Of a stretch of 64,000 nucleotides of DNA, positions 4,568 to 60,090 are shown piece by piece. The DNA is taken from the NCBI GenBank assembly GCA_033064195.1, contig JARBJD010000154.1:106136-170135 (forward strand), in the 5' to 3' direction. Source of the DNA: Blattamonas nauphoetae. Lineage: Eukaryota; Preaxostyla; Oxymonadida. Positions within the stretch are counted from its first letter, which is position 1. Each line of letters begins with the position of its first letter. The position numbers and the translations under genes are program-made. The notes below the pieces were generated by a model. It saw only the letters and a program-made list of their open reading frames with translations, was not told where the DNA came from and did not search any database.

Positions 4568-7500
4568 TCAGGCCTCATCCATCAGCATCTTTCGAAGTGA
4601 GTCCATCTGAGAAGAATACGAAGTCAAAGCTGACACGAGAGGGGCCCGATCAGGCTCCTCTTCTTTGTCGAGCTGCTCTTGAGCGGCAAGAACATCGATG
4701 AAAGCATTGTGGGTGAGAGTAAGTGCGTTGAGGATGGGTGGAACAACAGCGGCGTGTGCTTGTGTCGCCAGCTCCTTTGTGTTGTTGGAGAGGTGGGTGA
4801 TGATGGCAGGGTACGACCGGACAGGAAGTGTGGGCAGAAGCACTCCGAAGAACTTCACACCGATCAGCTCGACGATGAGAGAGATGAGCTTCGCGTCGGG
4901 TGTGCTGTCTGTCACGATGGGGGATGCGCGCATCTCTGTCGAGAAGACAGTCTGCTGTTTGGAGAGAAGAGCCTTCTCGGCTCGCTTCTGGACAGCAGGG
5001 ATGACGAGGCACTCCTCCGTGGCGATCTGGCTGATGCCGTCGATGAATGTGGAGAGGCTGGCGGAGGGCGAGTGGGAGGCTGTCTGGATGGCAGTGAAGA
5101 GCGACTGGAAGAGCGGGATGACCGGCGACTGCGGCATCTGGTTGATGATTGTTTTGAGTGTTTGGATGTGCTCCTCGGCGTTGGTCTGGCTGAGCGTGGG
5201 AAGAGTAAGAGCTGCGAGGGAGGATGAGAGGTGAGAAAGGAGAGGAACAAACAGGCGTCGTTGGCTGCGATTCGGACGAGGGTGGTTGCGCAGTCGAGGC
5301 CGAACGATCGAAGCACCGCTTTGGCGACCGTGCCCTTCAGACTCTCCTTCTTCTTGTCCTTCTTGGCCTTCTTGCTGCGCTTGCCCTTCTGCTTCTCTTC
5401 GTCGTCGGACTCGTCGTTCTCCTCTTCCTTGTCAAACAGCCGCTCGACACCGTTGACCGACGTGTTGAGGACGATCCACTCGTCTTTGAACGCCTCTTCC
5501 AGCTCCTTCCGCTCGACTTTGGACGACGCCCTCTTCTCCACGTTCTGCTGCGTGCGGAGGGCGAGGAAGGCGTGGAAGAGAACGGGAAGCAGGCGGAACG
5601 AGAGGGGCACGACGAGGTCGTCGTTGAGTTCGTTCGATTTGTGGATCGCTGCGAGCTTGAGCTGCTTCTGCTGCTCCACGAAGAGGTCTGAGTTGGACGC
5701 GTTCTCCTGGATGAGGTGTTGGATGTCGTCGAGCGGGAGGATGGACAGGAACACGCCAAACGGGGTCGCCCGCACTGAAAAGAGAAGTGAGAATGAAAGA
5801 TGGCACACGAGCAGCAGCTTCGTCGTCCTCTTCGGGTGTCTGCTTCTTTCCCTTCTTCGCCTTGCCGCCCTTCCCTCGCTTGCCCTTCTTCGGCGCATCG
5901 TCCTCCCACTCCTCATCGTCGTCGGCCTCCTTCGGCGCTTCTGGCGATGGCGCCTTTCCTCCCCACACTTCATCTCGCCGCTGCCACATCCGCAGACGCA
6001 GTTCGGACTCGCACACAGCCAGCAGACGCTCGACGGTCAGCACAGACACAAAGAAGTGGTCAGACGGCACGGCATTCTTGAACGACTTGTGTGTCTTGAC
6101 GAGCTTGGCCTCGGGGGCCTCTGGCTGGAGGGCGTCCATGAAAGCATACGAGAGCGGGGTGAGCGAGCCGTAGTATTCGGGAAGGGTGAGGAGCGACTGC
6201 GCGGTGAAGGGCTGCTTGTCGGTGGTGGACGTGGCGTAGGCTGTGTGGAAGGGGAGGGAGGCGAGGAGGATGGCGTGCGGGTTGAGGTTGGCTGTGCTGG
6301 TCGACCCGCCCTTCTTCTTCTTCGATTCCTTCACAAGTGGCTCTGACGACACGTTCAGTGTCTGTGTGTCCTCGAGGACAGAGCGAGACACGCCCAGTCT
6401 GTCCTGCGTCCTCTCCACGGCCGAGTTGGGGGTGAGGAGGGAGTGGGCGTAGGCTGAGCTGTGGAGTGACCCAACATTCGCAAAGCAGAGAGACTGCCGG
6501 CGGAGGGTGAGCGGCTCTTTCCGCTCGTTGTTTGTGAGCGGGCAGGATTGGGTGTGTTTGGACTCGTCGAGTGTCTCGCGAAGGACGACGAGTTGGAGCT
6601 CGTCTGATTTCGTGGCGGGAGCGAGGAAAGGGAGGTTGGAGAAGAGGACGGCGTAGTCGTCGTCGGTGAGGGGCATCGTGTGGAAGTCGCTGAGCAGCGC
6701 ATATCCTTCGTCGGCGAGGGACTCTTCTAAATTCGCACTCAAACTTTCGAGTGTCGATTTGCCAACCGCGAGCGTGTCTAAGAAGATGAGCTCTTCCTTG
6801 AGACGCTGTTGGAGAAAGCCCTGCATGTCTCCGCCGCCGAGTCCGAGTTTCTTGACGTGCTCGAACGTGACGAAGCCGTTCTGAGCGTAGAAGGATTCCA
6901 GCGCATCCGTCTGTCCTTTGGAGAAGGAAAGAGGAGAGTACAATCCTTTTGAGATTTTTCCCTTCAGTTTTCCGTCAGAAATCAAATGCTCAACAATCGG
7001 CATGAGGAGATTCTCGGCGATGTTGAGACGAGGGACGATCTGCGTCACGATGTTCGTTGGAACTGTAATTCCCATGAAAGTACCCCGAATAAGGGCTTTC
7101 ATTTCATCGCCGTGGGTTTCTGTGACAAGAGTATCGCCTTGGAGCTTTGCTTGGATGATCTTTCCGAGATGCTTCTCAACACTCTTCTGAATGATGTGGA
7201 AGGGAACCTGGAAACGAACGACCAGATCTGACAGAGTTAGAACGCCCATTTCAAGGAGAACTTCCTGAATTTCAACGGCCATCTGTCTGATGTAATCGTC
7301 AGAGATGAGGGTCCCTTCAGCAACAAAAATACTCTTACTCTTCAGCGCATTACAGGCCTCGAAGACTCTATCATAGTCAACGTTGAGAAGAGGTGGGATT
7401 TCAGATATGGTGAGTCTTCCATTGTGTCGCCTTAGCTCGCGAACTACTTCCTGTTGGAGACTTTCTCGTGTCATGATCTCTTTGCCATCCATTGATCGAA

Positions 7501-7684
7501 TGAAATCAAGAAGATTCATCGTTTGCAAGCTTTGGACAATATCTACAGTGGTGGATTCTAGAAATCGTGCTTTGGTTGGAGCTTTTTGAGTTTGACGCAA
7601 TTGTTCTTGGAGTTTTCGCTGAAACACAAAGGGCATGGTGTTGAATCATGACATAGAAGAAATACATACAATTTCGTCCATCAT
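4568..7684 (-). CDS. UFL1: UFL1, E3 UFM1-protein ligase, 996 aa, four exons
   Basis: UFL1 transfers the ubiquitin-like modifier UFM1 from the E2 UFC1 to substrates, mainly on ribosomes and ER proteins. I read the coding exons as complement of 7670-7684, 5809-7618, 5253-5774 and 4568-5211. The first exon encodes MMDEI and joins RKLQEQLRQ, matching the animal start around EEIRRL. The winged-helix N-terminal half (DGKEIMTRESLQQEV, GRLTISEIPPLLNVD, DDYIRQMAVEIQE) aligns through the family, followed by a low-complexity linker and a helical C-terminal domain ending LRKMLMDEA. Introns are 34, 41 and 51 nt and all restore frame exactly. It is longer than human UFL1 (794 aa) because of Ser/Lys-rich inserts near residues 430-470 and 570-610. 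Its 5' end faces UFM1 across 59 bp. Family assignment is strong; the insert boundaries are less certain. Confidence 0.88.
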
Positions 7685-7743
7685 TTTGCCGACAAATTGA
7701 TGGTTTGATGATTTGAAGTTTCACCCATACTAAAAAAGAAGAA
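7685..7743. promoter_or_regulatory. Shared 59-bp region between divergent UFL1 and UFM1 start codons
   Basis: Only 59 bp separate the two ATGs, so both transcripts must start within it or inside the opposing gene. It is AT-rich and contains no TATA box that I would trust. A bidirectional promoter is inferred from geometry alone. Confidence 0.45.
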
Positions 7744-8103
7744 ATGTCAACCGGAGAGGTCAAGTTCAAGATCACTCTTACATCTGATCCACAACAACCA
7801 TATAAGACGTTAGGACTTTCTTTTGCGCTTACTTTTTCTTTTTCTTTGTTATTCGGTTGACCAGATTGTCAGTGAAAGAAGACACAGAATTCACTAATGT
7901 CCTTCATTTTGTGGCGGAAAAATTTGGCATGGTTCCACAAGATGCTGCAATCATTACTTCAAGTATAGATTTTTCTTTCTTCTCGATCTTCACCCTTCTC
8001 AGCTGGTGTTTGTGTGAATCCAAAACAACCTGCTGGTACCATCTTCCTGAAGCATGGCGGAGATCTTCGTCTCATCAACAGAGATCGTGTTGGATCAAAC
8101 TAA
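7744..8103 (+). CDS. UFM1: UFM1, ubiquitin-fold modifier, 87 aa, three exons
   Basis: Exons 7744-7808, 7865-7962 and 8003-8103 (introns 56 and 40 nt) join in frame into a protein that follows human UFM1 throughout. It starts [16 protein letters not shown], continues [47 protein letters not shown], and ends NRDRVGSN. The modifier needs processing by UFSP proteases to expose the terminal glycine of the VG motif. Here two residues (Ser-Asn) follow it, as Ser-Cys do in human UFM1, so a UFSP should exist elsewhere in the genome. In the cell UFM1 is activated by UBA5, carried by UFC1 and ligated by UFL1, which is the adjacent divergent gene. The gene is easy to miss because no single exon gives a long open frame. 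Confidence 0.93.
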
Positions 8104-8113
8104 TATATTGTCA

Positions 8114-8458
8114 TGAGTGAACGCCAGTACTTCCCTTAGCCTCTGCAACCGTCATGGAAACATTCGACATTGACCATCACTTTGTTCTTTTGAGATTATT
8201 CTACCAACTCTTGCGTTTCGAAAGGAAAGTACTAACACTTCATATTTTGAGATCTTCTTTCATGAAATGTCCACCCGAACGCACCACATTCTTTCAGGCC
8301 AAATCGTCACAGAATTATGGATGGACGATGATGGTCTGTACAAACTCTATAAACGTCGTGTCGAAGGTTTTATAGAAAAACAAAATGACTTTCGACCAGA
8401 GATTGATGAGCTTCATTTTCCGATCTTCCCATGGAAGACGATATCGTTCGAGAAATGA
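8114..8458 (+). CDS. Unrecognised small protein between UFM1 and IFT56
   Basis: A possible three-exon model starts MSERQ at 8114, runs through LFYQLLRFERK, then IFFHEMSTRTHHILSG, and ends at the stop near 8458. The third segment (about 8255-8458) is the best supported: a charged reading including VTELWMDDDGLYKLYKRRV. The second intron would be only 23 nt (GTACTAAC...GAG), which is suspiciously short although it restores frame. The predicted end overlaps the IFT56 ATG at 8431 by about 28 bp, so either the two genes overlap or one boundary is wrong. I found no family match; it does not resemble UFC1, UFSP or DDRGK1. It could also be 5' UTR of IFT56. Confidence 0.35.
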
Positions 8459-10589
8459 CGTACGCAAGACGAAGATCGACCAGACCAACAAAGAAGCGTA
8501 CAGCAGTCCAGGAGGAAAGAGAAACTCTTCCAACATTAGACTCATTTCTTGATGCTCGGAACTATGTCGGGGCTTTAACATTCCTCGAGGTCTTTCTCTT
8601 TGCATATCATGATATCGATGATCATTCTCCATTGTTTATTGCTCCACATGCAGCACATGAGTCTTTCGCATCAAACTATCACAACAACACCTTATGGTAC
8701 CGAAACAGCTAAACCAATTAAACATTGGATGGCATACTGCAATTACCATCTAGGAAACTTTGAAGTTGCGTCTGATGTATGAGAATACTGCGTTCATCCT
8801 AATCCTTTGAACAGTTATATCATGAACTCCTCGAAAGCGAAAGAGAGCCGACGTATTATTTGGATATTGCCTGTTGCGACATAATGATGGGTAATCTTCG
8901 TGAAGCTCAGATTAATGCAACAAAAGGGCCATACGATAGCCTCCGTGATCGAATTGAGTATCTTGTCGCAGCACAACTCGACCAAGGCGTGAAAATGCTT
9001 CCGGTCTCACAAAAACCAGGCAGTCAAGACATATCTCCCGAACTGTGTAAGAACCAAGTATCCGCCACTTCATCGTCTTCATCTTCTCAGCTCTGTCAAG
9101 CACATGTCCACTACCTCAACGGTCGCTACACCGAAGCTGTCGCCATCTATGATCGCCTCGTCGACCAGCACCCGTTTGGTTATCTGTCTCTCCATTTTCA
9201 TTCTCTGCTCAGTGACTTTCCTGCAATCCGAATCTACCAGGCTTACTGCAATTTTAAGCTGGAATACTACGACAAAGCACTCCAAGCAGTGCAAGAGTGT
9301 GATCTCCCCTATCCTTCAGTCTCTTTCTTTGAAATTCTCTGCACAGGTATTTGCGGATAAACCCACGCTCTCCCACCGGACTGAACCTTCTCGCATGTCT
9401 CAACCACAAACTGTATGGGGAACGATCCAACTCCGTCGAAATCGTGCGATCCATCGAAGAATCTTCCTATCTCCCGCCATCCACCGAAATGATTCTGAAG
9501 CACAACAAGGTTGTGTTCAAGAACGGCGAGGATTCCCTCCAGGTGCTTCCCCCGCTCACCGAAGAGTTTGGCGAGGCGAAGCAGAACCTGACCATCTTCT
9601 ATCTCAAAAACGACCTCATCCAGGACGCATACGCCAACATGCGCGACCACCAGCCGACATGCAATTTCGAATACACGCTGAAAGGAATTGTTCTGACGCT
9701 GATCGCCCAGTCGCAGGGAGCGATGGGGGAGACGGTGTCGGACGAGAACCTCCGCGCGGCGCAGGAGATGTTCGAAGTGATGGGATCGTCGCCCGAAGAC
9801 TGCGACACGGTGAGCGGGAGGCAAGCCATGGCGTCGTCGCTGTTTCTGAAAGGGAAGTTCTCGGAGTCGCTGAAGTACTTCGAAAGCATCGAGCAGTTCT
9901 TTGTGGAGGACGACGCGTTCAACATGAACTACGGCATCGCCCTCGCCTCGTCTGGCCGGTACAGCAGTGCGGAGTCTGTGCTGGCGCGGATTGAGACGGA
10001 GAAGATCCGCAACGAAGACCTGTCCTACGCTAACTGGATGGCTCGCTGCCACTGCCTGAACGGGCACGCCGAGCAAGCGTGGGATCTGTTTCTGAGTCGG
10101 AAGGTGCTGTCGATGGACGAATCCGACAACCTCGACTCGTCGATGAGCGACAACAGCAACCTGTACGGGCTGCTCCAGGTCATCGCCAACGACTGCTATC
10201 GCACGGGGCAGTTCCTGTACTCGGCGAGGGCGTTCCAGGAGCTGGCGAAGATCGAGGAGAACGAGTCGTTCGACGCTGGGAAGCGGGCAGCGTGTGTGGG
10301 GGTGTTCTACCAAGTGATGGTGGGACAGAAGATGCACACCGACGCGCAGGGAAGGGAGGAGCTGAACGAAGCTGTCAACATCCTCCAGTTCGACCTGTCT
10401 GACCGCGTCGCTCAGAACCACGCGAAGCAGATGATTGAGTGGGGACAGAAGAATCTCAACATGAATTTCTCGAACGATGACGCACCCTTCATGGGCTCGC
10501 GTCCGTCCCGCCGCGGTGCCGACTACGATTCGCTTGAGAACTCAGCCGGGGACGAGGAAGAGTCGTACTCGGAGTCGGACGGGGAGTGA
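8431..10589 (+). CDS. IFT56: IFT56 / TTC26 / DYF-13, intraflagellar transport TPR protein, 655 aa
   Basis: IFT56 is a TPR subunit of the IFT-B complex that moves motility-related cargo into cilia. Exons 8431-8589, 8654-8776, 8815-9173, 9213-9296 and 9347-10589 join exactly (introns 64, 38, 39 and 50 nt). Diagnostic stretches shared with animal TTC26 are GALTFLE near the start, WMAYCNYHLGNF, IYQAYCNFKLEYYDKAL, EYLRINP...LNLLAC, ECDTVSGRQAMAS, WMARCHCLNGHAEQAW, LLQVIANDCYRTGQF and GKRAACVGVF. All TPR helices are present. An acidic tail of about 40 residues ending YSESDGE exceeds the usual length (human 554 aa), as do inserts in the N-terminal half. The gene implies that this organism builds flagella. 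The first four exons are short and AT-rich; the long last exon is GC-rich. Confidence 0.93.
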
Positions 10590-26846: not shown

Positions 26847-29800
26847 TCAAAAATTGCCTCTCTGAAGAGGCTTGTTCGATCGCAGTTCAAAATCACAAGG
26901 AGAAGATGAGCTCATCTGAAAACAGTGAAAATAAAGCAAGCAAACTGAGAGTGTGTGTGGGAACGAGACACGTTCTTTGATTGTGTGAGATTCTTTGTCT
27001 ATTTTGAACACGATCTCATCGCGTCGGACTGTCAGTGTGATCTTTGAAAAAGGTGTCATCACTCTTTTGAGGCGGTCTGAAGTTGGGGTGGACTTTCCAT
27101 TGAAGATGATGGCTCTTGCGGTGATTTTGATGGAGTCGGTCTTGCCTCTCCTCTCGAATTGAAATGCGACATCGAAGGGGCATCGATCGGGACGCTTGAG
27201 GTGGTAAGAAACTTCATACTCACGTTGGTGATTTGTCTGGAGGTTTTTCTGTCTAGCATTGTCTGGGCAATAGTGTTCAAGCCTAATTGTCAGTCCTCTC
27301 TTCTGAGGAGAAGTCGATCGGGTTGGGGATGCAATCGGCAAGGGAGGAGCCGAGGGATTGTTTGGGTACGGTGACTGTGTTGCATTATACGACTGATTGG
27401 TTGAAGGCTTTTGAGGGTTGGCTGGTGTTTTTTGTGGACTCGGACTGCGGGAAGGAGAGTGTCGAGTCTGGTTTGTCTGAGGGCGCTGGTAATGGTACAG
27501 TTGTGATTGGAGATGTGTTGCAATATACGACTGATCGGTTGAAGGCTTTTGAGGGTTGGCTGGTGTTTTTTGTGGACTCGGACTGCGGGAAGGAGAGTGT
27601 CGAGTCTGGTTTGTCTGAGGGCGCTGGTAATGGTACAGTTGTGATTGGAGATGTGTTGCAATATACGACTGATCGGTTGAAGGCCTTTGAGGGTTGGCTG
27701 GTGTTTTTTGTGGACTCGGACTGCGGGAAGGAGAGTGTCGAGTCTGGTTTGTCTGAGGGCGCTGGTAATGGTACAGTTGTGATTGGAGATGTGTTGCAAT
27801 ATACGACTGATCGGTTGAAGGCCTTTGAGGGTTGGCTGGTGTTTTTTGTGGACTCGGACTGCGGGAAGGAGAGTGTCGAGTCTGGTTTGTCTGAGGGCGC
27901 TGGTAATGGTACAGTTGTGATTGGAGATGTGTGCATCGCGATTGAAGATTCTCGTGCTCCTTTCTTCGCTGATCCGCTTCCCCCAATAACGATCTGATCT
28001 GGCGTTTCATGTTTTCTCCCTCATTCTCCTGTCTCCTCCATTTTGCTTCAAAGTCTCGGGCTCTCTCCTCGCTTGCTTTTCTTGCCTCTTCACTTTTGTG
28101 TAGTTGTCTCTGAAGTGTCTTATTCTCGATTAAGAGTTGAATCTTCTCATTCTCCGGTCTTGCTTGGGAAGTGTTCCGCTGATCTTCGATGATAAGGCTG
28201 CGTCTCAATTGATCCTGGGTGACGAACTCGGTTGATGGAAGGGCAATCACCTTCTTCCGAAGCGATTCAGCTCGGAGATTCTCGAGTTCTCCATCATGGC
28301 GCTGCTTTTGTTCTTGGATCTCCCTCTCGTGCTGCTCCTGCATTTTCTTGTTATTTTCTCGTTCTTCCAGCCAGCTAGCCTTGGATCGTGTGTTGGCCTC
28401 TGTTGCCATCTTGAGATCGATTTCCAAACTCTTGCTCTTCTTCCGTTCGGCGTCGAGTGCTGTTTGAAGATGTCTGGATGCTTCTGAAAGTTTGATCCTT
28501 TTGATGTGTTCTTCTTTCTCTTGCACGGTCATTCTGAGAGCAGCTAATTCTTTATTGTGTTCTTGTTGTTCATTCCTGAGTGCTTGGATGATTTGCTCAA
28601 GTTGAGTGATTCTTTCTTGTGCTTCGTTAAGTGTGTCTGTCTCTTCTTGCTGTTGTTCTTCTTGCTTTAATTTCTCGCTTGTCTTCTCTAGTTCCGAGTG
28701 GAGGCGTGCGTTCTCTTTTTGCTCCATTTTGAGCTCGTTCACAACTTTGTCCTTTTCCTTTTCCAAGTGTTCGAGCTGATTCTGAAAACCATCGCTCTTT
28801 TCCAGCAGTTGATTCCTTTCGTATACGAGCTTTTCGAATGCATTTTTGTGATCGTTTTCTTGTCTTGCCATTTCCTGCTTTGTGTCTTTCAACTCCTTTG
28901 CTCGATGTTCCACTTCCCTCCTTAACGTTGTGATCTGGCTATTCACGTCTTCTTTCTCTCCCTCCAGCTTCTTCACCTGCAGTTGAACCTGGTTGGTGGT
29001 TTGGAGTTGGTCATTCAGAGCCTTGATGGTTTGGTTCAAACGGTTCCTCTCGTCTTCGAATGTATTGTTTCTGTTCTGGAGGTCGGTCGCTTTCCGTGTT
29101 AGATCATCAATCGTTTGTTCAAATTGCGCCTTCACATTGTTCAGTTCTGTTCGGTTTCGTCTCAATTCTTCATCTTTCTTGCGATTCATCTCTGCTTCTG
29201 ATTTTCTTGCGTCTTCGCTCTTTAGTAGATCGTTCTGGAGTGTTCTGATTTCACTCCCAAGCTTTTGGTTGTCTTGTTGAAGTCGAGCGAAACTGTCTTG
29301 TGTTGCGCTCAGTGTGCCTTTCTCCAATTGATGTTTTGTTTTGTAATTCTCGAATTCTCGCTGGATCTCTTCGGCTTTCGTCGTTTTCTGCTGCAACTCG
29401 TCGATGTCTTTGATTCGTCGATCCACTTCTGATTGGAGTTGTCCTGTCTTTTCTTTCTCCGTTTGGAGCTCCTTCGCCGATTGTGCGGCTGTTTGTCGAA
29501 TCGCTTCAGATTGTCTTTTCTGCTCTTCGAGTTCATGTCGGAGTTGTTTCATGTCCTTCTCCAGGTTTTTGAGTTGGCTCTCAAGTTGATTCCTTTCGTT
29601 TGTGAGTTTGTTGATTGCACTGTTGTGATTGGTGGTTTGTCCTACCATTTCCTTATTCATGTCTTCGAATGCCTTTCCTCGCAGTTCCGCTTCCCTCCAT
29701 TTTGCTTCCAAGTATTGGGCTCTGCCATTCGTTTGTTGAAGTTGTGCCTTCACAGTGTTCAATTCCTTTTGATTGCGTCTCAATTCTTCATCTTTCTTGC

Positions 29801-32800
29801 GATTCATCTCCTCTTCTGATTTTCTTGCATCTTCGCTCTTTTGTAGATCGTTCTGGAGTGTTCTGATGTCACTCCCAAGCTTTTGGTTGTCTTGCTGAAG
29901 TTGAGCGAATCTTTCCTGTGTTGCGTTCAGTGTGCCTTTCTCCAATTGATGTTTTGTTTTGTAATTCTCGAATTCTCGCTGGATCTCTTCGGCTTTCGTC
30001 GTTTTCTGTTGCAACTCGTCGATGTCTTTGTTTCGTCGATCCACTTCCGATTGGAGTTGTTCTGTCTTTTCTTTCTCCATCTGGAGCTCCTCCGCTGACT
30101 GTGCCGCTGTTCGATGGGCCGCTGAAGTCTGACTTTTCTGATCTTCAAGTTCTTGTCGGAGTCTGTTCAAAATGTTCTCCGTTCTGGTTTGATAATTCTT
30201 CATAGTCTCGTTTGCGTGATCTCTCTCCGAGCGAAGACGTGCTGCCAGTTCTCTTCCCACTTCAAGTTCACTGAGAGTGTCTGCCTTCTCGCTCTCCAAT
30301 TTTTGGCGTTGGCGTCGATGATCTTCCTTTTCTTGGATCAGTTGAGATTCGGTGCGTTGAATCTTGTCCGTCAGGGTTTGGATGCTTCGCTCATATCGAT
30401 TTATTTCGTTTGTGATCTGGTTCTTCAGGTCTTCTTTCTCTCCCTCCAGCTTCTTCACCTGCAGTTGAACCTGGTTGGTGGTTTGGAGTTGGTCATTCAG
30501 AGCCTTGATGGTTTGGTTCAAACGGTTCCTCTCGTCTTCGAATGTATTGTTTCTGTTCTGGAGGTCGGTCGCTTTCCGTGTTAGATCATCAATCGTTTGT
30601 TCAAATTGCGCCTTCACATTGTTCAGTTCTGTTCGGTTTCGTCTCAATTCTTCATCTTTCTTGCGATTCATCTCTGCTTCTGATTTTCTTGCGTCTTCGC
30701 TCTTTAGTAGATCGTTCTGGAGTGTTCTGATTTCACTCCCAAGCTTTTGGTTGTCTTGCTGAAGTCGAGCGAATCTTTCCTGTGTTGTGTTCAGTGTGCC
30801 TTTCTCCAATTGATATTTTGTTTTGTAATCCTCAAATTCTTGTTGGAGTCTCTCTCGTTCTCGTTCTTCCTTCTTCAATTTCTCAACCATCTTCCGTTGT
30901 TCCTCTTGCGATTGTGCCGTAGTTAGTTGTGCTGTTGTAGTCTGCCTTTTCTGATCTTCGAGTTCTTGTCGGAGTCGATCCATGTCCTTCTCCTTCTCCG
31001 CTTTGAGTTCCTTCATAATTGTGTCAGTATCCTTCTCCAGGTTTTTGAGTTGGCTCTCAAATTGATTTCTTTCGTGGGTGAGGTTGTCAAGTGCATTTTT
31101 GTGATTGTTTTCTTGTCTTGCCATTTCCTGCTTTGTGTCTTTCAACTCCTTTGCTCGATGTTCCACTTCCCTCCTTAACGTTTCGATCTGGCTATTCATG
31201 TCTTCGTTCTCATTCTCCAGTCTCCTCCGGTTTGCTTTAAATTCATCATCTTTTTTGCGATACATCTCCTCTTCTGCTTTTCTTGCATCTTCGCTCTTTT
31301 GTAGCTTGTTCTGGAGTGTCCTGATTTCACTCCCAAGTGTTAGGTTGTTTTGTTCAAGTCGAGCGAATCTGTCTTGTGTTGCTTTCAGTGTGTCTTGCCC
31401 TTCCCGCTGCTGTGTTTTGTAATAATCGGTTTCTCGCTGGAGCCTCTCTCGTTCTCGTTCTTCTTGTTTCAATTTCTCGTCTGTCTTCAGTCGTCCCTCT
31501 TCGGCTTTCGTCGCTTTTTGCCTCAACTCGTCGATGTATTTGTTTTGACGATCCACTTCCGATTGGAGGGCTTTCGTCTTGGCTTTCTCCGTTTGGAGTT
31601 CTTTCTCTGACTGTGCTGCTGTTTGTTGAATCGCTTCGGTTTGCCTTTTCTGAACTGCAAGTCTTTGTCGGAGTTGGTCCATTTCCTCCTTCAGCTTTTC
31701 ACGGCTCGTATTGTCCTTTTCCATTTGATCGACTGTCTGGCTGAGTGTCTTTGTCTTTTCCTTTTCTGTTTTGAGTTCGGTCACAAGTTTGTCATGATCC
31801 TTTTCCAAGTTTTTGAGCCGGCCCTCAAATTGATTTCTTTCGTTTGTGAGCCTTTCGATTGCATTTTTGTGATTTGTTTCTCGACTTGCCATTTCCTGCT
31901 TCATGTCCACCTTCTCTCTCTCCAGCTTCTGAACCTGTGGCTGAACCTGGTTTGCGGTTTGGAGTTGGTCTTTCAGTGCTTTGACAGTTTGGTTCAAGTT
32001 GTTCCTCTCTTCTTCGATCGCTTTGTATCTGCTCTGAAAATCATTGGTTTTCTGTGTCATTTCGTCCTTCATTTTTTGGTTGTTCGCCTCTGATCGACTG
32101 AGCAATTCAATGGTTTGTTGGTGACTGATTTCTTGCTTATTCATTTCCTGTTTTGTGTCCTTCAACTCCTTTGCTCGCTGTTCCAAATCCCTCCTCAACA
32201 CTGCGATCTGTCTCCTCATCTCATCTCTCTCCTTTTCAATGTTGGCCGTTGCTGTTCTCATTTCTTGCTCCGATCTTTGGATTTGTGTGTCAACTTGTTT
32301 TTGGGCTTGTTCAGCATTTTTGAGTTGATCTTTCAATGCCTTGACGGCTTTGTCCAAGTTGTTCTTCTCGTCTTCGATTGAGTTGTTTCTGTTCTGGAGG
32401 GCGTTGACCTTCCGTGTTAGATCATCAATCGTTTGTTGACCGTTCGTGTTGGCTATCTCTGCTTGTCTCAACTGAGACTGAAGATGGTCACATTGTTGTC
32501 TCAGAGAAATGAGTTCTGATTGATTCTGCATTGGGTCTGGTTTTAGGATTGGATGCGGGTCCGGTTTTGGGACTGGATGCGGGTGCACTCTGGTTGGCTC
32601 TTTCATCGCAATCCGATCCGCGTGGCAATCCTGGACGTACACCAAACTCATCGCAGAATGGGCCACTTCCCTTCCATTCACCACTCCCCCAAACTGGCCC
32701 TCGATTGCTTCTCTCTCCTCCACCCTCCGAATCGTCTCGTCGTTGCACTCAAACCATTCCCTCGTTCCAAGCGGGCGAATGAACGAGTAGTAATGTCCCA

Positions 32801-34315
32801 CTGTGAGCGAGCCTGAGTGGACTTCCACAGCGAGGAGCGAGTAGCGGAAGGACTGCGAATAGAACGGCCCGGTCTTCTGCTTGGCCATCCACGCCTGTTC
32901 CTTCTCCGACTCGCCCAGCCCGCTCAGTTCGGAAGAGTAGACCAGTCTCTGGGCAGCGTGTCTCGGTTCATTGAAAGTGAGGGATTGTTGGAGTTGAGGT
33001 GATTGAGGAGCTTGAGCGGAAGGAGCTTGTCCTTTTGCTTTCTTGATCTCTTTCTTCTTTTGGATGGCATTCATCTTCTCTGTGAGTGTGAGGGGCTCAA
33101 TCATACGAGACAAGTCGAGAGAGGTCGGGAAAGCGAATCGTTTGTTGTTCTTCATCAGTCCTCCTGGGCCAGATGTCCAACGGACAAGATCAACAAAAAG
33201 AACAGGAGGGAGAGAGTAGATCTTTTGGGTCTGAGAGAGGCGAGAGAAGAGAAAGAGAAAGAGAAATATGGAAGAGGAGGGCATACGTTTCCGCGTTGAT
33301 CGGGAATGAGGAGTTTGGGCAGCACGTCCTCCACTCCATTCCCCAACTCGATCGGCACTCGGAGCGACCAGAAGTGTTCGGGGTGGACCGACACGCTCAT
33401 CCGACCCCTTTGTTCAAGTGGTGTCCTGCGGATGAGTCGACCGCTGAGGAGAGACGAGGCCAGCCCGCGAAGGGGAGTGTTCTGGTTGTGACAGGAAACA
33501 GGGACAAAACTCAATGGATGAAGAAGTGCAGACCTTGAGCTCAGTATGGAGTCCATTGACGAGTCTGTTGAAGAAGTCTTGAGTGTCGTTCATCTGGCGA
33601 ACATCAAATTGGGGGAAGTGGATGGTCTGGGTGAGCACACTCGTGTTCACTGGCGTCTGCGAGGTGAGCATTGCTTGGAAGAGTCTGTGGAGGCCGACAT
33701 GGAGGGGATGCCTTGGAGAGGGGGATGGGGGGAGTGGGAGAGAGGTGAGAATCTGATGACAAAGAGGGGTGAAGGGAGATGAGGGCGAGGGAAAGGTGCT
33801 CACACGTTTCGGAAGAGAGGGATGTGGAAGAGAGACTGGACAACGATGTTCAGGTAGCATTGGAGACCTGGGTTCACCAATCCCACAAAGTGCAGGCGTG
33901 CTGCTTCGGGTGGGGCTGGCCCCATGAACTTCGGGACGAGCTGAGGGAGGGGCACAGCAGCAGGTGCAGACACGCTCAGTTTGTGCTCGTTTTCTTTGTG
34001 CTGCTTCATCTGATCCATCGGCACAGCCTTTCCGCAAACCTCGCAGACTTGGGCAGGACCCGTGGACTGACGGGCTGGGAATCGCGCTCCATTCTGAATG
34101 TGTTTGGGCATGTTTTTGGGAAGTGGGTGGGGTGGCCGTGCCGGATCTGCTGAGAATGCAGACGGAGGACGGGTTGGGTCGTGGGGGGAGGAGGCGGGGT
34201 ACGGGGAAGTTGAGGCTGGCTGAGAGTGACTGGAAGGTCTGTTCTGTGCCCGACGGAGAGGAGACACGTGCCTGTAGTTCTGTTCGGTGCGATGTGTGTC
34301 TGGGATGTAGTAGAT
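26847..34315 (-). CDS. USP7-like deubiquitinase fused to a giant coiled coil
   Basis: Exons (complement) 33806-34315, 33534-33752, 33287-33481 and 26847-33230 (introns 53, 52 and 56 nt). First a C2H2-like finger (CEVCGKAVPMDQMKQHKENEH spacing), then the USP Cys box VGLVNPGLQCYLNIVVQSLF, a QDA-like box (MNDTQDFFNRLV), a USP7-like segment (LPPVLFVDLVRW and NNKRFAFPTSLDLS), and the His box GHYYSFIRP followed by WFECNDETI, so Cys, His and Asp/Asn are all present. About 1,450 residues of heptad coiled coil follow, then four 46-aa SPSRSPSP-type repeats and a beta-rich tail (FDVAFQFERRG, KITLTVRRDEIVFKI). An extra intron may remove bases 26915-26975 near the stop. The frame has no ATG before 34111, and the upstream kinase exon splices into it in phase, so it is probably one gene with the kinase. 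Confidence 0.8.
27374..27925. repeat. Four tandem 138-bp repeats in the coding sequence
   Basis: Four units with a period of exactly 138 bp (46 codons); units two to four are nearly identical and the first is more diverged. They encode a Ser/Pro/Gln-rich repeat around PSRSPSPQKTPANPQ. The near identity points to recent expansion or homogenisation. Confidence 0.9.
28947..29291. repeat. Copy 1 of a 345-bp internal duplication in the coiled coil
   Basis: Matches 30429-30773 at a fixed offset of 1,482 bp with almost no differences. It encodes about 115 residues of coiled coil including NNTFEDERNRLNQTIKALN. Confidence 0.85.
30429..30773. repeat. Copy 2 of a 345-bp internal duplication in the coiled coil
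   Basis: Second copy of 28947-29291 in direct orientation within the same exon. Shorter related blocks (for example 29321-29390 and 29939-30008) show further rounds of internal duplication. Confidence 0.85.
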
Positions 34316-34380
34316 CTGCGGGGGTGGTTTGGGGACTGGGGAGTGAAGAGAAGGAATCACAAACAGTGTCCAGAAGTGAC

Positions 34381-35670
34381 CTGTGCAAACGTAGTCCACG
34401 TCACCCCGCTCTGGGCATCTTCCTCGAACTGCTTGAAGAATGGGAGTTCGAGGGCTTCCCTGGCTGTTGGTCGTTGAGCGGGTGATTTGGACAGAAGAGC
34501 GTTGATGGCGTCTGTGCAGTGTTGGGAGAGATCACGTCGAGTGATGGTGTGGGGCTTTGTTTGGATGGACGTGTACAGCTGGTGTGTCGAGGCCCCTTCG
34601 AACGGGTATCTGCGAGAGTGATGAAAAGCAGAGCACACGAGCGGCAGAGAAGAATAAACAGCATGACTCCGATTGCCCAGGTGTCAGATTTGTGTGAATA
34701 ACGAGGGGAAAGATAGACAATCTCGGGTGCGAGGTAGACAGGAGTTCTGAGAGCAGAGAAGAAATGGTGTCAGAAAAGGAGAGGGTACCCCACTACGTCT
34801 TTTGAAGAAGGAGCTTCTGATTCTTGGATTATCAGTCCATAATCGGAGACCTGTACAAAGACTGAGTCATCTCCATCAAAGTGTAGAAAAATGTTTTCAA
34901 GTTTTAAATCTCTGACATCGATATTTTGCGAAAGAAACACACCTATGAATGAGTCTATGCTCATAGAACTCCGCGATACAGAGTACTACAGTTTATGATG
35001 GAAGAGAGAAATCTATTCAGACAGATTTGACTGATGAAAATTCCGACGACGTTTTCAGGAAGTGGAGGAAATCTGCCGTCTATCAAACGATTCAAGGCCT
35101 ACAAATCGGGAAATAGCGTTGATAATTCAAACTGGCAGGTTTGCATAATCCATCATGAGAATGAATTGCCCTTCAAGTTGTGTTGTGAGTCGAATTCGAA
35201 TATAAAAAGGATTTTTTATCCCTTTTCTACAAAAATGTGAAATAAGGAACATGTATACTCAAAAAAGTGAACAGCATATTTCTGTTCCCCATCAATGTTC
35301 TGACCTCGAGCAATGATTTTCACTGCTGCCAACCCGCCTTGATATTGGACAAGATAAACACTAACAAATTACCCAAATCAAAAATGGCACATACATTCCG
35401 GAGGTTCCTTGACCTATCTCAGAGAATGAATCATGTTTGAAAAATAAAAAAAACGAGTGACAGACCAAGAATTTTGATCACCTAGGACAAAAAATGAATG
35501 ATAAGAAACAAAACACAAACATAACATTGTAAACAAGCTAAAAGGCGGCTGTGTTCAGCATTGAATGCAGACATATGGTCAAAAGAATCAAGAAAAAAAA
35601 ATTGTTCTTTGATCGAGGTGGACATATGTTTATCTCCGTGAACACGATTCTGTAGACATTCCATTCTCAT
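34381..35670 (-). CDS. Serine/threonine protein kinase module, likely 5' part of the kinase-USP gene
   Basis: Eight small exons (complement) 35395 to about 35450, 35259-35360, 35133-35226, 35023-35098, 34943-34985, 34789-34911, 34639-34746 and 34381-34609 splice into a complete kinase domain. It has the glycine loop IGQGTSGIVYLV, the VAIK-type lysine AAVKIIARG, LMMDYANLPAL, HRDLKLENIF, a DYG variant of DFG (VQVSDYGLI), GTPVYLAPEIV, SDTWAIGVMLF, and the C-lobe end RPTAREALELPFFKQF. Introns are 29-42 nt. Catalytic residues are intact, so it should be active, with Tyr replacing Phe in DFG. The N-terminus is unresolved; an ATG at 35670 (MRMECLQNRVHG) is one possible start. The last exon can splice (intron 34316-34380, phase 0) straight into the USP frame; without that intron the kinase stops at 34357. 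Confidence 0.8.
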
Positions 35671-45434: not shown

Positions 45435-45691
45435 GGGTGACCGGGTCACTTTTTGCCGAAAAGTGGTGACGGTCAGTGACCGGGAGAGGCAAAAATATGG
45501 GCAATCTCAGATCGAGGGCAGTTGTCATTTCTTCCCGAGAAGTGATGAGGATGATTGTCTGTATTCACCTCGAAGCATTTTTTCATTTCTTCCTCCATCC
45601 AACGTTGAAATTACGTCACACAAATCAACTTTATCTTGTCTAGCATGAGGAAGTTTTATTATGGGAAGATTCAATTTTGACTACTCGAAGG

Positions 45692-48331
45692 ATGATTCCT
45701 CAGAGTGATCAAGAGACAGGGCTCTCACTTCAATTGGGTTTAGCCACAAATGGAAAATGGTTTCGTATGTTTTTGTTTCGATTTCACTTATCAGGGATTC
45801 CTGGAGAAGAAAAGTTTGAATTTCAACTCAAAGTCGACAAAACCAATGCTAACTTTGAGACAGAAGTCGTAAAAGTCAGATTTCAGAATTCAAAACAGTT
45901 ATTCCAGCCAAAACGACTCTTCCTCCTCTGCTCACATCATGATCCTGTAAATGGAAGATGTGCCCATTTTTCTCGTCGTTCTGTTTGGGACCCTCTCCAC
46001 ACGCATATTTTCAAATCTACACCTCGGTCTCTCCAAACGGAATTGGATTCCACGCCTCAATTCACTTCTTTCGAAAGATTTTTGTATGTCTGGGCCACTA
46101 AGCATCATATTTCGTATCGAGCCCTCGCCGCTCCAGAATTTATAAAAATGGTTGATATCCTTATGGGATTTATCAAAACTCAAACGAAAAACAGACAAGA
46201 GATTCACCGAATTCTCTCTCGCGACAGGATATCTCTAAGAATTCGTGAATTGGGATTACGAAATATTCAACAATCTTTGATTGCACGGCGACATCAAATG
46301 GGATCTATTGTGGTAGATGGAGGGAAAATTGGAGATATGCACATCTTTCTAGCAATTTTTGTTACACCGCATGTGGGATTCGAACCGTTGTTGATCAATG
46401 CATCTTTTCAGGAAACAGAACTCAACACTCAGTTCTATTCATCATTCGCTGATGAATGTCTTCAAATCTGCAGGAATCATCGAATTCAACCGATTGCATT
46501 TGTGGCAGATAATGCTGTACCACTTCAGAATGGCTTAAACTCCATCCACAATCAACCCAGGGACAGTGACAATATCGACCCGCTCCTCCAACCTCTTCTT
46601 CCAGTTTCTCCTCATCCAATTGTGGGAAGATGCCACAATCATCTACTTGATTTGGCTTGGAATGATTCCAAAAAGTATGCTCCTCACATATCCATTCTTC
46701 TGGAGACACTCCGACGCTGTGCTGCCACTTTTCCTGTTGCTCTCTCTGACGAATTAGGATCCAAACCTCCCTCATTTTCACCAACTCGTTGGCTAGACGA
46801 GATGTACCAAGTTTCCTGGTTTGGACGAAACTACCCTCGATTCAACACACTCTCGGTCGAGGAGGAGCAATTCTTCCTGGAACTTGTTGAACTTCTAAAA
46901 ATCCTCCAGCCGCTGTTCCATCTCAAAAACCAACTTGGATCAAGGACATGCAATATAACTCATGTCTTCCCACTCCTGATGCAAACAATATCCACAATTT
47001 TACAGAATCTCTTGCATTCCCCAACTCGATGGAAAGATATGGGATCCATCATCATTGATTGTCTCTTCGTTCGTTTTTTCTGTAACACCGCATCGTCACT
47101 AATGCTAGTGGCATTCGCCCTCACAAAACAAGGCAGGGATTCTTACCATGAACAAGTGTCAATTCTCCCCAAGCCAGAAGACATCGATCTCAACTTTGTC
47201 CCAATTGTCCTTGATGAAGACGACCGTGTTCCTGTGGATCCGATTGAGATATCCGACACTTCAGATGATCTTTCTGAAGTAGAGAGACGAGAGAGAATTC
47301 GAAGGAGCAAAGGAAAAAAACCGAATGGCATCGAACAACCAAAACACACTCAAACTAGCTATCATCATTTTCAGAAACCAATCGTTCCTGTGAATGTATG
47401 CCCACCAATCGTGGCCCAAAAACGACAATTTCCAACAACCATGACTACTATTGAATCCCACAGTCAAGACTCCGAAGAGAAAGATGACCCCACTAAAAGT
47501 ATCAGACCTCGCCAAAATTTTCCTCCACTTCTACCAATCTCGATTCTGTTGAATCCACCATCATTTACCAAGGGACAACTGCCAATCACATTGTTCACCA
47601 TTCCAAAACAAAACCAAAGCAGTTTTACTAAACCACTTTCATTTCCGATTCCTGTTAAACCCTTGACTATCAACAAGGCCAACCAAGCCAATGGATTGAT
47701 AAGTTCTCCTACAAACAGTCACCAGACACCACAAGAAACAAGTCTCAATCATCGACCTCGTCCTCAACAAACTCAGCCCCTTTTCCCAGGAATCGTATCA
47801 CAGATTGAATATACTCCCCCTCACCGTCATCTCCACCAAATGCGAACTGGAATCGAGTTGCCATCAATCGTCCACAAAATCGCAAATGAAACACAGGGTC
47901 AGAATCAGGACGTGCAATCTGAAGACTTTCCAAGAACTCCAGCATTTTCGGTTCTTTCTTGCTTACACACCTTTCATCATGAAATCGCTGCTGGATTCAG
48001 AAAATATTCGACCTTGCTACTTGGTCACACAAATCCATCTCTCGAGCAACAATTCGATGTATGGATCAACCGGGAGGAGACCATCTCATTCGAAATATCA
48101 GACTTGAGCTACAGGCAGTTTTGGAGGCGATACAAAGACCGTGCAAACGCATCAGAACTTGGAGACTTTGCATTGTCAATTGGAACAGTAGCAGTGTCGG
48201 AGATTGAGTGTGAGCGCTATTTCTCACACCTTGGGAAGATATATTCGAAATCCAGACGCAATCTTCATCGAGAACAAGTACTGGCTGAACTATCGGTTGC
48301 CTTTCACACCACGTTGGACAGTCGCGAATAG
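45692..48331 (+). CDS. hAT transposase, about 879 aa
   Basis: An uninterrupted ORF; the frame is open from 45677 and the first ATG is at 45692. The RNase H-like core includes IVVDGGKIGDMHIF (first Asp) and PIAFVADNAVPL (second Asp), followed by a helical insertion domain (IVGRCHNHLLDLAWND, SFSPTRWLDEM). The C-terminus is a typical hAT dimerisation region: YRQFWRRYKDR, ELGDFALSIGTVAVSEIECERYFS, then LGKIYSKSRRNLHREQVLAEL. Between these, residues of about 500-760 form a long Pro/Gln/Ser-rich disordered insert unusual for the family. I see no clear N-terminal BED zinc finger. The reading frame looks intact, so the protein may be active. Confidence 0.9.
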   Translation: MIPQSDQETGLSLQLGLATNGKWFRMFLFRFHLSGIPGEEKFEFQLKVDKTNANFETEVVKVRFQNSKQLFQPKRLFLLCSHHDPVNGRCAHFSRRSVWDPLHTHIFKSTPRSLQTELDSTPQFTSFERFLYVWATKHHISYRALAAPEFIKMVDILMGFIKTQTKNRQEIHRILSRDRISLRIRELGLRNIQQSLIARRHQMGSIVVDGGKIGDMHIFLAIFVTPHVGFEPLLINASFQETELNTQFYSSFADECLQICRNHRIQPIAFVADNAVPLQNGLNSIHNQPRDSDNIDPLLQPLLPVSPHPIVGRCHNHLLDLAWNDSKKYAPHISILLETLRRCAATFPVALSDELGSKPPSFSPTRWLDEMYQVSWFGRNYPRFNTLSVEEEQFFLELVELLKILQPLFHLKNQLGSRTCNITHVFPLLMQTISTILQNLLHSPTRWKDMGSIIIDCLFVRFFCNTASSLMLVAFALTKQGRDSYHEQVSILPKPEDIDLNFVPIVLDEDDRVPVDPIEISDTSDDLSEVERRERIRRSKGKKPNGIEQPKHTQTSYHHFQKPIVPVNVCPPIVAQKRQFPTTMTTIESHSQDSEEKDDPTKSIRPRQNFPPLLPISILLNPPSFTKGQLPITLFTIPKQNQSSFTKPLSFPIPVKPLTINKANQANGLISSPTNSHQTPQETSLNHRPRPQQTQPLFPGIVSQIEYTPPHRHLHQMRTGIELPSIVHKIANETQGQNQDVQSEDFPRTPAFSVLSCLHTFHHEIAAGFRKYSTLLLGHTNPSLEQQFDVWINREETISFEISDLSYRQFWRRYKDRANASELGDFALSIGTVAVSEIECERYFSHLGKIYSKSRRNLHREQVLAELSVAFHTTLDSRE

Positions 48332-51253: not shown

Positions 51254-52233
51254 ATGTCCACGAAAATTATCAGAATTCGTAATTGATCATTGGTGGACGT
51301 ATGCTATAACATGGGAATGAATGCCACAGATGCCCATGACTTCCTAGCAAATTTCACACAAATCCTCCCTCTTATTCGAACATTACCCATCTCTATCGCC
51401 TCAAAAGAGCTGGTGACTTCAGTCTCGAAGGTCCAAAACCGCAACACGACAGATTCGACCCTCTCTTCTCTCAACTCCTCCTTCAGATGATTCAGATGGA
51501 CGAATCGGTCTCGATTACTCGCATTTCACTGATTGCTGGACATTCCAAGAACATGATCAAAAATTATCTGACAAACAGACTTCATCTTGTGAAAAAAAAC
51601 ATTAAATGGGTCCCTCATCAACTGACGAACGCACAAAAGCACCAAAGAGTCCGAATTTCTCAGAGACTCCTCGATATTTTGGTTCCTCATTCTGGCAGCA
51701 ATTTCGTGAATATACTGACGGGAGACGAGAGCTGGATTTCGTGGTCAACACCATCATATTTTGTGTGGAGAGCACGCGACGAGGAGAGAGATGTCCATCC
51801 GAGAGACATTCTTCGAAGCGAAAAGACCATACTGATCGTCTTTTTTGGCGTGGTCAATATCTTCACCCATCTTGTCCCCCCAATCAACACTCATTACCAA
51901 ACAGTCCACGATGACAACCCACCAGAAATTCTTTTTCACTTTGACAACGCCCCTGCGCACAGGGCAATCGTCACGCAGCAGCGCATCCAAGAGACATGCT
52001 TTACCCGTCTTCCGCATCCACCGTACAGTCCCGATCTCGCAATTTGTGATTTTTATCTCTTCGGTGCACTCAAAGAGCATTTACGGGGGCGTCCATCACA
52101 CAGTCGCCAGGAGCTCCACCAAAACATTCATAACTTTCTCAACGCAATTAGTGTACCAGTGCGGGTTGATGTTTTTCGCAATTGGTGTCATCGTCTTCAC
52201 GCTGTTACGAACAATGGGGGTGAATATCTCTAA
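51254..52233 (+). pseudogene. Decayed mariner transposase (D,D34D type)
   Basis: The long frame 51487-52233 has the mariner signatures WVPHQLTNAQKHQRV, LTGDESWISW (first Asp), FHFDNAPAHRA (second Asp) and HPPYSPDLAICDFYLFGALK (third Asp, at the spacing expected for mariner). The N-terminal DNA-binding part lies in another frame: MGMNATDAHDFLANF at 51311-51357. A later N-terminal motif, RLKRAGDFSLEGP at about 51395, is already in the catalytic frame, so a frameshift lies between about 51357 and 51390. A TGA at 51284-51286 also interrupts the frame from the ATG at 51254. With two lesions and no clear terminal repeats it is probably inactive. It sits just outside the right end of the hAT element. 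Confidence 0.85.
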
Positions 52234-59261: not shown

Positions 59262-60090
59262 TCAATTAGAACGAGTTGGATGACGATGAATGAGGATGCA
59301 GAAGCATCCCAAATTTAGTGAATAGAAATTAAACATCGACAAAAACCCTATGTCACAGCGAGAGTGAATTCCGTTGAGAGTGAGACTGTCTGAATCCTTG
59401 TCAGACTCGACAAATTGTTGCTCGCCAACGAAGCAGTGTGCACGGGTCTTCCCAGTGATCACAAGTTTCTTCAGCTCGTGATTTGCAAAGTCGCATTCGT
59501 TAATCATCCCCATGTCGTTTTCGAAACCCATTTCAGACTTCGTGACTTCAGTTCCGTGGGTGGGGAAGAGAGTGGAGAAAGGAGACGATTCCAAAGGTGG
59601 AGAGAATGAAGAGACTATGGAAGCGGTGTTATCGACAACAAGACATTTGGAGTTCATATCAATTCGTTGGAATGATAATGAGGGGAAAGACGATGGAGTT
59701 TTGGACAGTGACGTCTTCCCTGCTTCTGAAGATAGTTTGGCAAGACAAACATGTCCATGTGTCAATGTTATCCACAAAACAGCGGCAAGTGTGGACAAGA
59801 TTGAATTGCTGCTGGCTGGATTTGAGGCTGTGGGTTGTTTCGTTCTTTGATCCCACATCACTTGGTATTCCTTCAAATGCTGAAAATTCACTGCCTGCAC
59901 TGATGTCAATTCGCCTCACCGGCCTCCCTCCAACAGGACGATACCAAACGAGTTCATCGCTTTGACAGGTTGAAAAAAGGAATCCTTGCATCCACGCCAG
60001 CGAATTCTCCGATTTGTGTCCAGATGACGAGATGATGTGTAGAGGTGAGTAGAAGCGGAGACAGAACTGAATTCAACTCGGATGAGATGA
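59262..60090 (-). CDS. Possible minus-strand gene of unknown function
   Basis: Minus frames 59262-59909 (Ser/Thr-rich; contains KCLVVDNTASIVSSF, GTEVTKSEMGFENDMG and KLVITGKTRAHCF) and 59659-59991 (contains DELVWYRPVGGRPVRRIDIS) overlap and could join by an intron near 59850. Composition is more protein-like than the opposite strand, but the start is not identified and no family is recognised. Another minus frame (55907-56266) has a similar feel but no clear alignment. Confidence 0.35.

Follow-up and report, generated by a model that had tools for sequence, protein, structure and literature searches.

A head-to-head UFM1-UFL1 gene pair with 59 bp between its start codons in Blattamonas nauphoetae

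Closely spaced divergent gene pairs have been described in other protists. In Toxoplasma, 1490 of 5868 genes are reported to lie in divergent pairs with a common nucleosome-free region, a count that the authors themselves suggest may be too high (PMC7854901). Intergenic regions of the oxymonad M. exilis are reported to average 1855 bp in length (PMC8767320). For the two proteins of interest here, UFM1 has been reported in eukaryotes only, while an Asgard origin has been reported for UFL1 and DDRGK1 (PMC10183829). Human UFL1 contacts UFC1 through its first helix, a contact that designed changes at I8, F15 and Q19 were meant to break (PMC10937380). The genome of B. nauphoetae has a GC content of 44.96% and 25,221 genes (PMC10703272); the words UFM1 and UFL1 are absent from the main text of that article. 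A weak search of the open-licence literature, covering titles and the starts of abstracts, found no report of a UFM1-UFL1 pairing.

We analyzed a window of 64,000 bp of B. nauphoetae DNA, that is, the whole stretch at its full length. It contains spliced genes that use the standard code and one tRNA gene, and has a GC content of 0.487; because its genes are spliced, we regard it as eukaryotic. Two transposase-like frames lie in the window, a long open hAT-like frame at 45644-48328 on the forward strand (PF05699, E 4.9e-06) and a DDE_3-like frame at 51340-52230 on the same strand (PF13358, E 3e-04, under the cut-off). The first-pass annotation had described UFM1 and its ligase UFL1 as a head-to-head pair that can be rebuilt from small exons and whose start codons stand 59 bp apart. 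Both genes, their exons and their spacing stand in our analysis:

7744..8103, forward strand: UFM1 gene, three exons (7744-7808, 7865-7962, 8003-8103), 87 amino acids
7809..7864, forward strand: UFM1 intron 1, 56 nt, GT-AG
7963..8002, forward strand: UFM1 intron 2, 40 nt, GT-AG
7685..7743, no strand: spacer between the UFM1 and UFL1 start codons, 59 bp, GC 0.32, putative divergent promoter region
4568..7684, reverse strand: UFL1 gene, four exons (7684-7670, 7618-5809, 5774-5253, 5211-4568), 996 amino acids
7619..7669, reverse strand: UFL1 intron 1, 51 nt, GT-AG, with an in-frame stop inside if unspliced
5775..5808, reverse strand: UFL1 intron 2, 34 nt, GT-AG
5212..5252, reverse strand: UFL1 intron 3, 41 nt, GT-AG

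The identity of UFM1 was examined with the spliced product, which matches the Pfam family Ufm1 (PF03671) with an E-value of 1.5e-30 and 105.4 bits at a cut-off of 27. The match covers profile positions 2-75 of 75, and the Ufm1 fold domain spans the whole protein. At E ≤ 0.01, UFM1 matches 14 distinct PDB sequences (best E 2.5e-28); 12 of these are UFM1 by name, including two that are fusions or come with a second peptide, and the remaining two are named hypothetical protein only. The protein ends in RDRVG-SN, a Val-Gly followed by a two-residue tail. The tail, which the first-pass annotation had taken to imply a maturing protease, is indeed present, and from it a UFSP protease is expected to be needed for maturation. 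Animal UFM1 carries the tail SC in place of SN. Tails of this kind are normal in UFM1 precursors and nothing out of the ordinary.

The spliced 996-aa UFL1 was verified in the same way, with a match to the Pfam family E3_UFM1_ligase (PF09743) at an E-value of 4.4e-67 and 227 bits (cut-off 23.2), so that the domain profiles bear out both spliced products. This match corresponds to the UFL1 N-terminus and covers profile positions 1-265 of 272. All four PDB matches at E ≤ 0.01 are UFL1, the best being 8ohd_A (E 4.5e-39, residues 3-334). When the 5′ ends of UFM1 and UFL1 are read unspliced, both run into stops, and splicing is therefore required for both products. Exon 1 of UFL1 measures only 15 nt and encodes MMDEI. 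In the alignment with 8ohd_A, the numbering of which we take to be that of native UFL1, human I8, F15 and Q19 fall opposite I5, L12 and Q16, so that two of these three residues are identical and one shows a hydrophobic change (F15 to L12). I5, the counterpart of human I8, comes from the 15-nt exon, and this exon-1 isoleucine in the predicted UFC1-binding helix supports the spliced UFL1 start.

An ATG at 7636 on the reverse strand lies inside UFL1 intron 1, in frame with exon 2. UFL1 could begin unspliced at this codon, with an N-terminus reading MPFVFQRKLQEQ and a spacer enlarged to 107 bp. We consider such a start very improbable. The PF09743 match reaches profile position 1 with the spliced start and position 4 with the 7636 start, and DEIRKL from the spliced start pairs with EEIRRL of PDB UFL1, whereas a start at 7636 loses the isoleucine aligned with human I8. 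The scores point the same way (227.0 bits spliced, 223.6 for the 7636 start), in a comparison that is not clean in that the two queries also differ C-terminally.

In its C-terminal half, UFL1 has diverged and gives no UFL1 match at the cut-off. The C-terminal 60S-binding domain PF23659 is matched only weakly (E 0.0044, 17.8 bits, cut-off 27), and a search of the PDB with the last 388 amino acids at E ≤ 5 returned no UFL1 among 11 matches. Because of this divergence, the last two exon joins, which depend on the open frame and the splice words and less so on homology, are a weaker point of the gene model. The C-terminus also matches Gasdermin-B (best E 0.026), a weak match that we put down to chance.

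UFM1 and UFL1 thus face away from each other on opposite strands, and the 59 bp between their start codons are AT-rich (GC 0.32 versus 0.487 for the window). Judged from these positions, the spacer must contain or touch both core promoters, which makes a common divergent promoter region for UFM1 and UFL1 likely. Both genes would then be transcribed from a single open region in or near 7685-7743, with two core promoters back to back and 5′ leaders that would be very short or overlapping. The spacer also carries an upstream open frame of 15 codons on the UFL1 (reverse) strand at 7728-7681, MGETSNHQTINLSAK, whose TGA stop overlaps the UFL1 start ATG. Just before this frame, at about 7737-7730, lies TTTTTTAG, which could be the 3′ splice site of an upstream leader exon.

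We also compared seven upstream regions of 80 bp for common promoter words; some of the seven starts were picked by eye, the UFM1 and UFL1 regions overlap, and two others cover coding sequence. Among words of 5, 6 and 7 nt, the most widespread ones are present in four, three and three of the seven regions, respectively, and these counts are reached by 448, 384 and 59 of 500 shuffled sets. The 7-mer ATCAAAC is mildly uncommon relative to the shuffles and not convincing as a promoter word in these seven 80-bp regions. The longest word common to both strands of the spacer measures 5 nt; at least this length is reached in 472 of 500 shuffles.

For comparison with the surroundings, we annotated the genes on both sides of the pair:

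about 4322-1692, reverse strand: phosphoenolpyruvate carboxylase gene, single open frame (PF00311, E 1.8e-281), adjoining UFL1 on its far side
8154-8458, forward strand: short open frame after UFM1, with no Pfam family at the cut-off
to 10589: TPR gene after the 8154 frame, with TPR-like Pfam repeats, one just above the cut-off and the others below

By eye, the gene ending at 10589 looks like IFT56. The 8154-8458 frame ends in a stop that shares bases with a putative start codon of the gene behind it (ATGA near 8454). The five neighboring gaps measure 245, 59, 50, 182 and 256 bp, values that depend on the ATG and stop positions we chose, all lie within 12 kb and exclude the overlapping junction of the 8154 frame with the TPR gene. 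The 256-bp gap belongs to the only other divergent pair resolved nearby (n = 1). The UFM1-UFL1 gap is short, yet it stands among short gaps; other parts of the window, for example 34.8-35.9 kb, look less packed. In a host like M. exilis, a gap of 59 bp would fall well short of the mean intergenic length.

Taken together, these results describe ordinary UFM1 and UFL1 genes with very short introns, arranged head to head among packed genes, and packing is probably the best explanation for their closeness. The first-pass annotation had gone further and placed both genes behind one putative bidirectional promoter, with co-regulation as a suggestion. A shared divergent promoter region can fairly be read from the 59 bp, but the co-regulation part could not be upheld, given that the upstream regions show no convincing shared word and nearby gaps are short as well.

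Two independent promoters, each overlapping the neighboring gene, would provide a different arrangement, with antisense 5′ leaders and possibly interference rather than cooperation. There is little space in 59 bp for a pair of promoters and their leaders. In dense regions of the M. exilis genome, gene models are reported to overlap, especially in their UTRs; 5′ leaders in this species average 62 bp (PMC8767320). This average exceeds the 59-bp spacer, so the promoters may sit inside the opposite gene if the host resembles M. exilis. For P. falciparum, an abundance of genes that overlap at their 5′ ends is mentioned (PMC7854901). Against this arrangement, the same source reports no such abundance in Toxoplasma, and promoters and leaders in Giardia are described as minimal (PMC3091692). 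We regard this arrangement as possible but doubtful.

Packing, our preferred explanation, does not account for the choice of partners. Arithmetic with random gene order and assumed gene numbers of 25,221 to 10,815 gives a probability of 7.9e-5 to 1.8e-4 per genome that UFL1 neighbors UFM1, and of 2.0e-5 to 4.6e-5 that the two lie head to head by chance. The rarity of such same-pathway adjacency by chance is something that packing alone leaves unexplained. These odds overstate the surprise, however, because the pair was singled out post hoc from a genome scan; the probability that any of the 28 pairs among eight pathway genes is adjacent amounts to 2.2e-3 to 5.2e-3 per genome.

With a chance of adjacency of about 1e-4 per genome under the assumed gene numbers, the pair could also be a selected co-expression unit, in which expression of modifier and ligase is coordinated by a single bidirectional promoter, for instance during ER stress. 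In wild-type mouse fibroblasts, brefeldin A is reported to induce Ufm1, Uba5, Ufl1 and C53 together, and this induction is lost without Xbp-1, although according to the same study Xbp-1 is not needed for induction by thapsigargin or tunicamycin (PMC3496721). Metazoan divergent pairs are stated to be often co-regulated, whereas for Toxoplasma divergent pairs the same source reports no evidence of co-regulation (PMC7854901). For yeast, highly associated head-to-head pairs are reported to be concentrated where the transcript starts are 0-200 bp apart (PMC3303733). The post hoc choice of the pair and the lack of a convincing common word in the upstream regions speak against such a unit. Moreover, the modifier would probably be required in excess over its ligase, so that equal output would bring no obvious benefit. 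On this evidence we hold a selected co-expression unit to be rather unlikely; the weight given to it overlaps with that given to packing, and the two readings are not exclusive. The full version of the idea, in which modifier and ligase under one bidirectional promoter form a lineage-conserved, operon-like piece of the UFMylation pathway, appears unlikely. An advantage from joint control of UFM1 and UFL1 is possible but unproven.

Judging by the families to which they belong, the two products would act in UFMylation: pro-UFM1 would be trimmed by a UFSP protease to its Val-Gly end, the mature protein would be activated by UBA5 and then handed to UFC1, and UFL1 together with its partners would attach it to substrates, the 60S ribosome among them. 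A Pfam scan of 130 of the 167 open reading frames of at least 110 amino acids in the window matched none of the families UBA5, UFC1, UFSP, DDRGK1 and CDK5RAP3, a further point against a co-expression unit; the other 37 frames overlap scanned frames or rebuilt genes, and short exons could escape such a scan. At 26847-34531 on the reverse strand, the window also holds a ubiquitin-specific protease, with the UCH domain PF00443 matched in two frames. Its long frame runs into a coiled-coil and repeat tail of roughly 1950 residues, and this tail contains four near-identical copies of a unit that starts with HLQSQLYHYQRPQTNQTRHSPSRS. A stretch of a MINDY-3/4-type deubiquitinase is found at 59265-59915 on the reverse strand (PF13898, E 6.4e-11).

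Relatives of the two proteins were also sought in prokaryotic and viral collections with few patterns, a scan that is uninformative on eukaryotes. For UFM1, prokaryote genome contigs yielded 72 pattern matches with a single protein and 41 with a three-row alignment, and viral contigs yielded 159; for the N-terminal part of UFL1, viral contigs yielded 109. None of these matches was confirmed by tblastn.

If the pairing is conserved and the two transcripts co-vary, the locus would represent a natural case of modifier and ligase dosage tied at the DNA level; if the pairing is not conserved, it would be one further tight pair among packed genes.

Compared with known systems, UFM1 from B. nauphoetae is matched over its full length, shows 61 and 65% identity to two aligned PDB sequences, likewise has the RDRVG end with a two-residue tail, and differs by an N-terminus two residues longer than the aligned PDB chain. 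The N-terminal third of UFL1 agrees with known UFL1, including its UFC1-binding helix and the stretch that forms a winged helix in the human protein. In contrast, the C-terminal half is diverged, with charged stretches that have a disordered look by eye, and the protein is longer (996 amino acids versus 794 in 8ohd_A). The UFL1 and DDRGK1 homologues of Asgard archaea represent the reported origin of UFL1, but UFM1 is reported in eukaryotes only, so that the pair is not easily an inherited operon, and we set aside an archaeal operon for this reason (PMC10183829). The pair shares opposite strands and close starts with the divergent pairs of Toxoplasma, which share a nucleosome-free region (PMC7854901), with the difference that our distance runs from start codon to start codon and not between transcript starts. 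In its measured features, the UFM1-UFL1 pair shows no departure from known divergent pairs.
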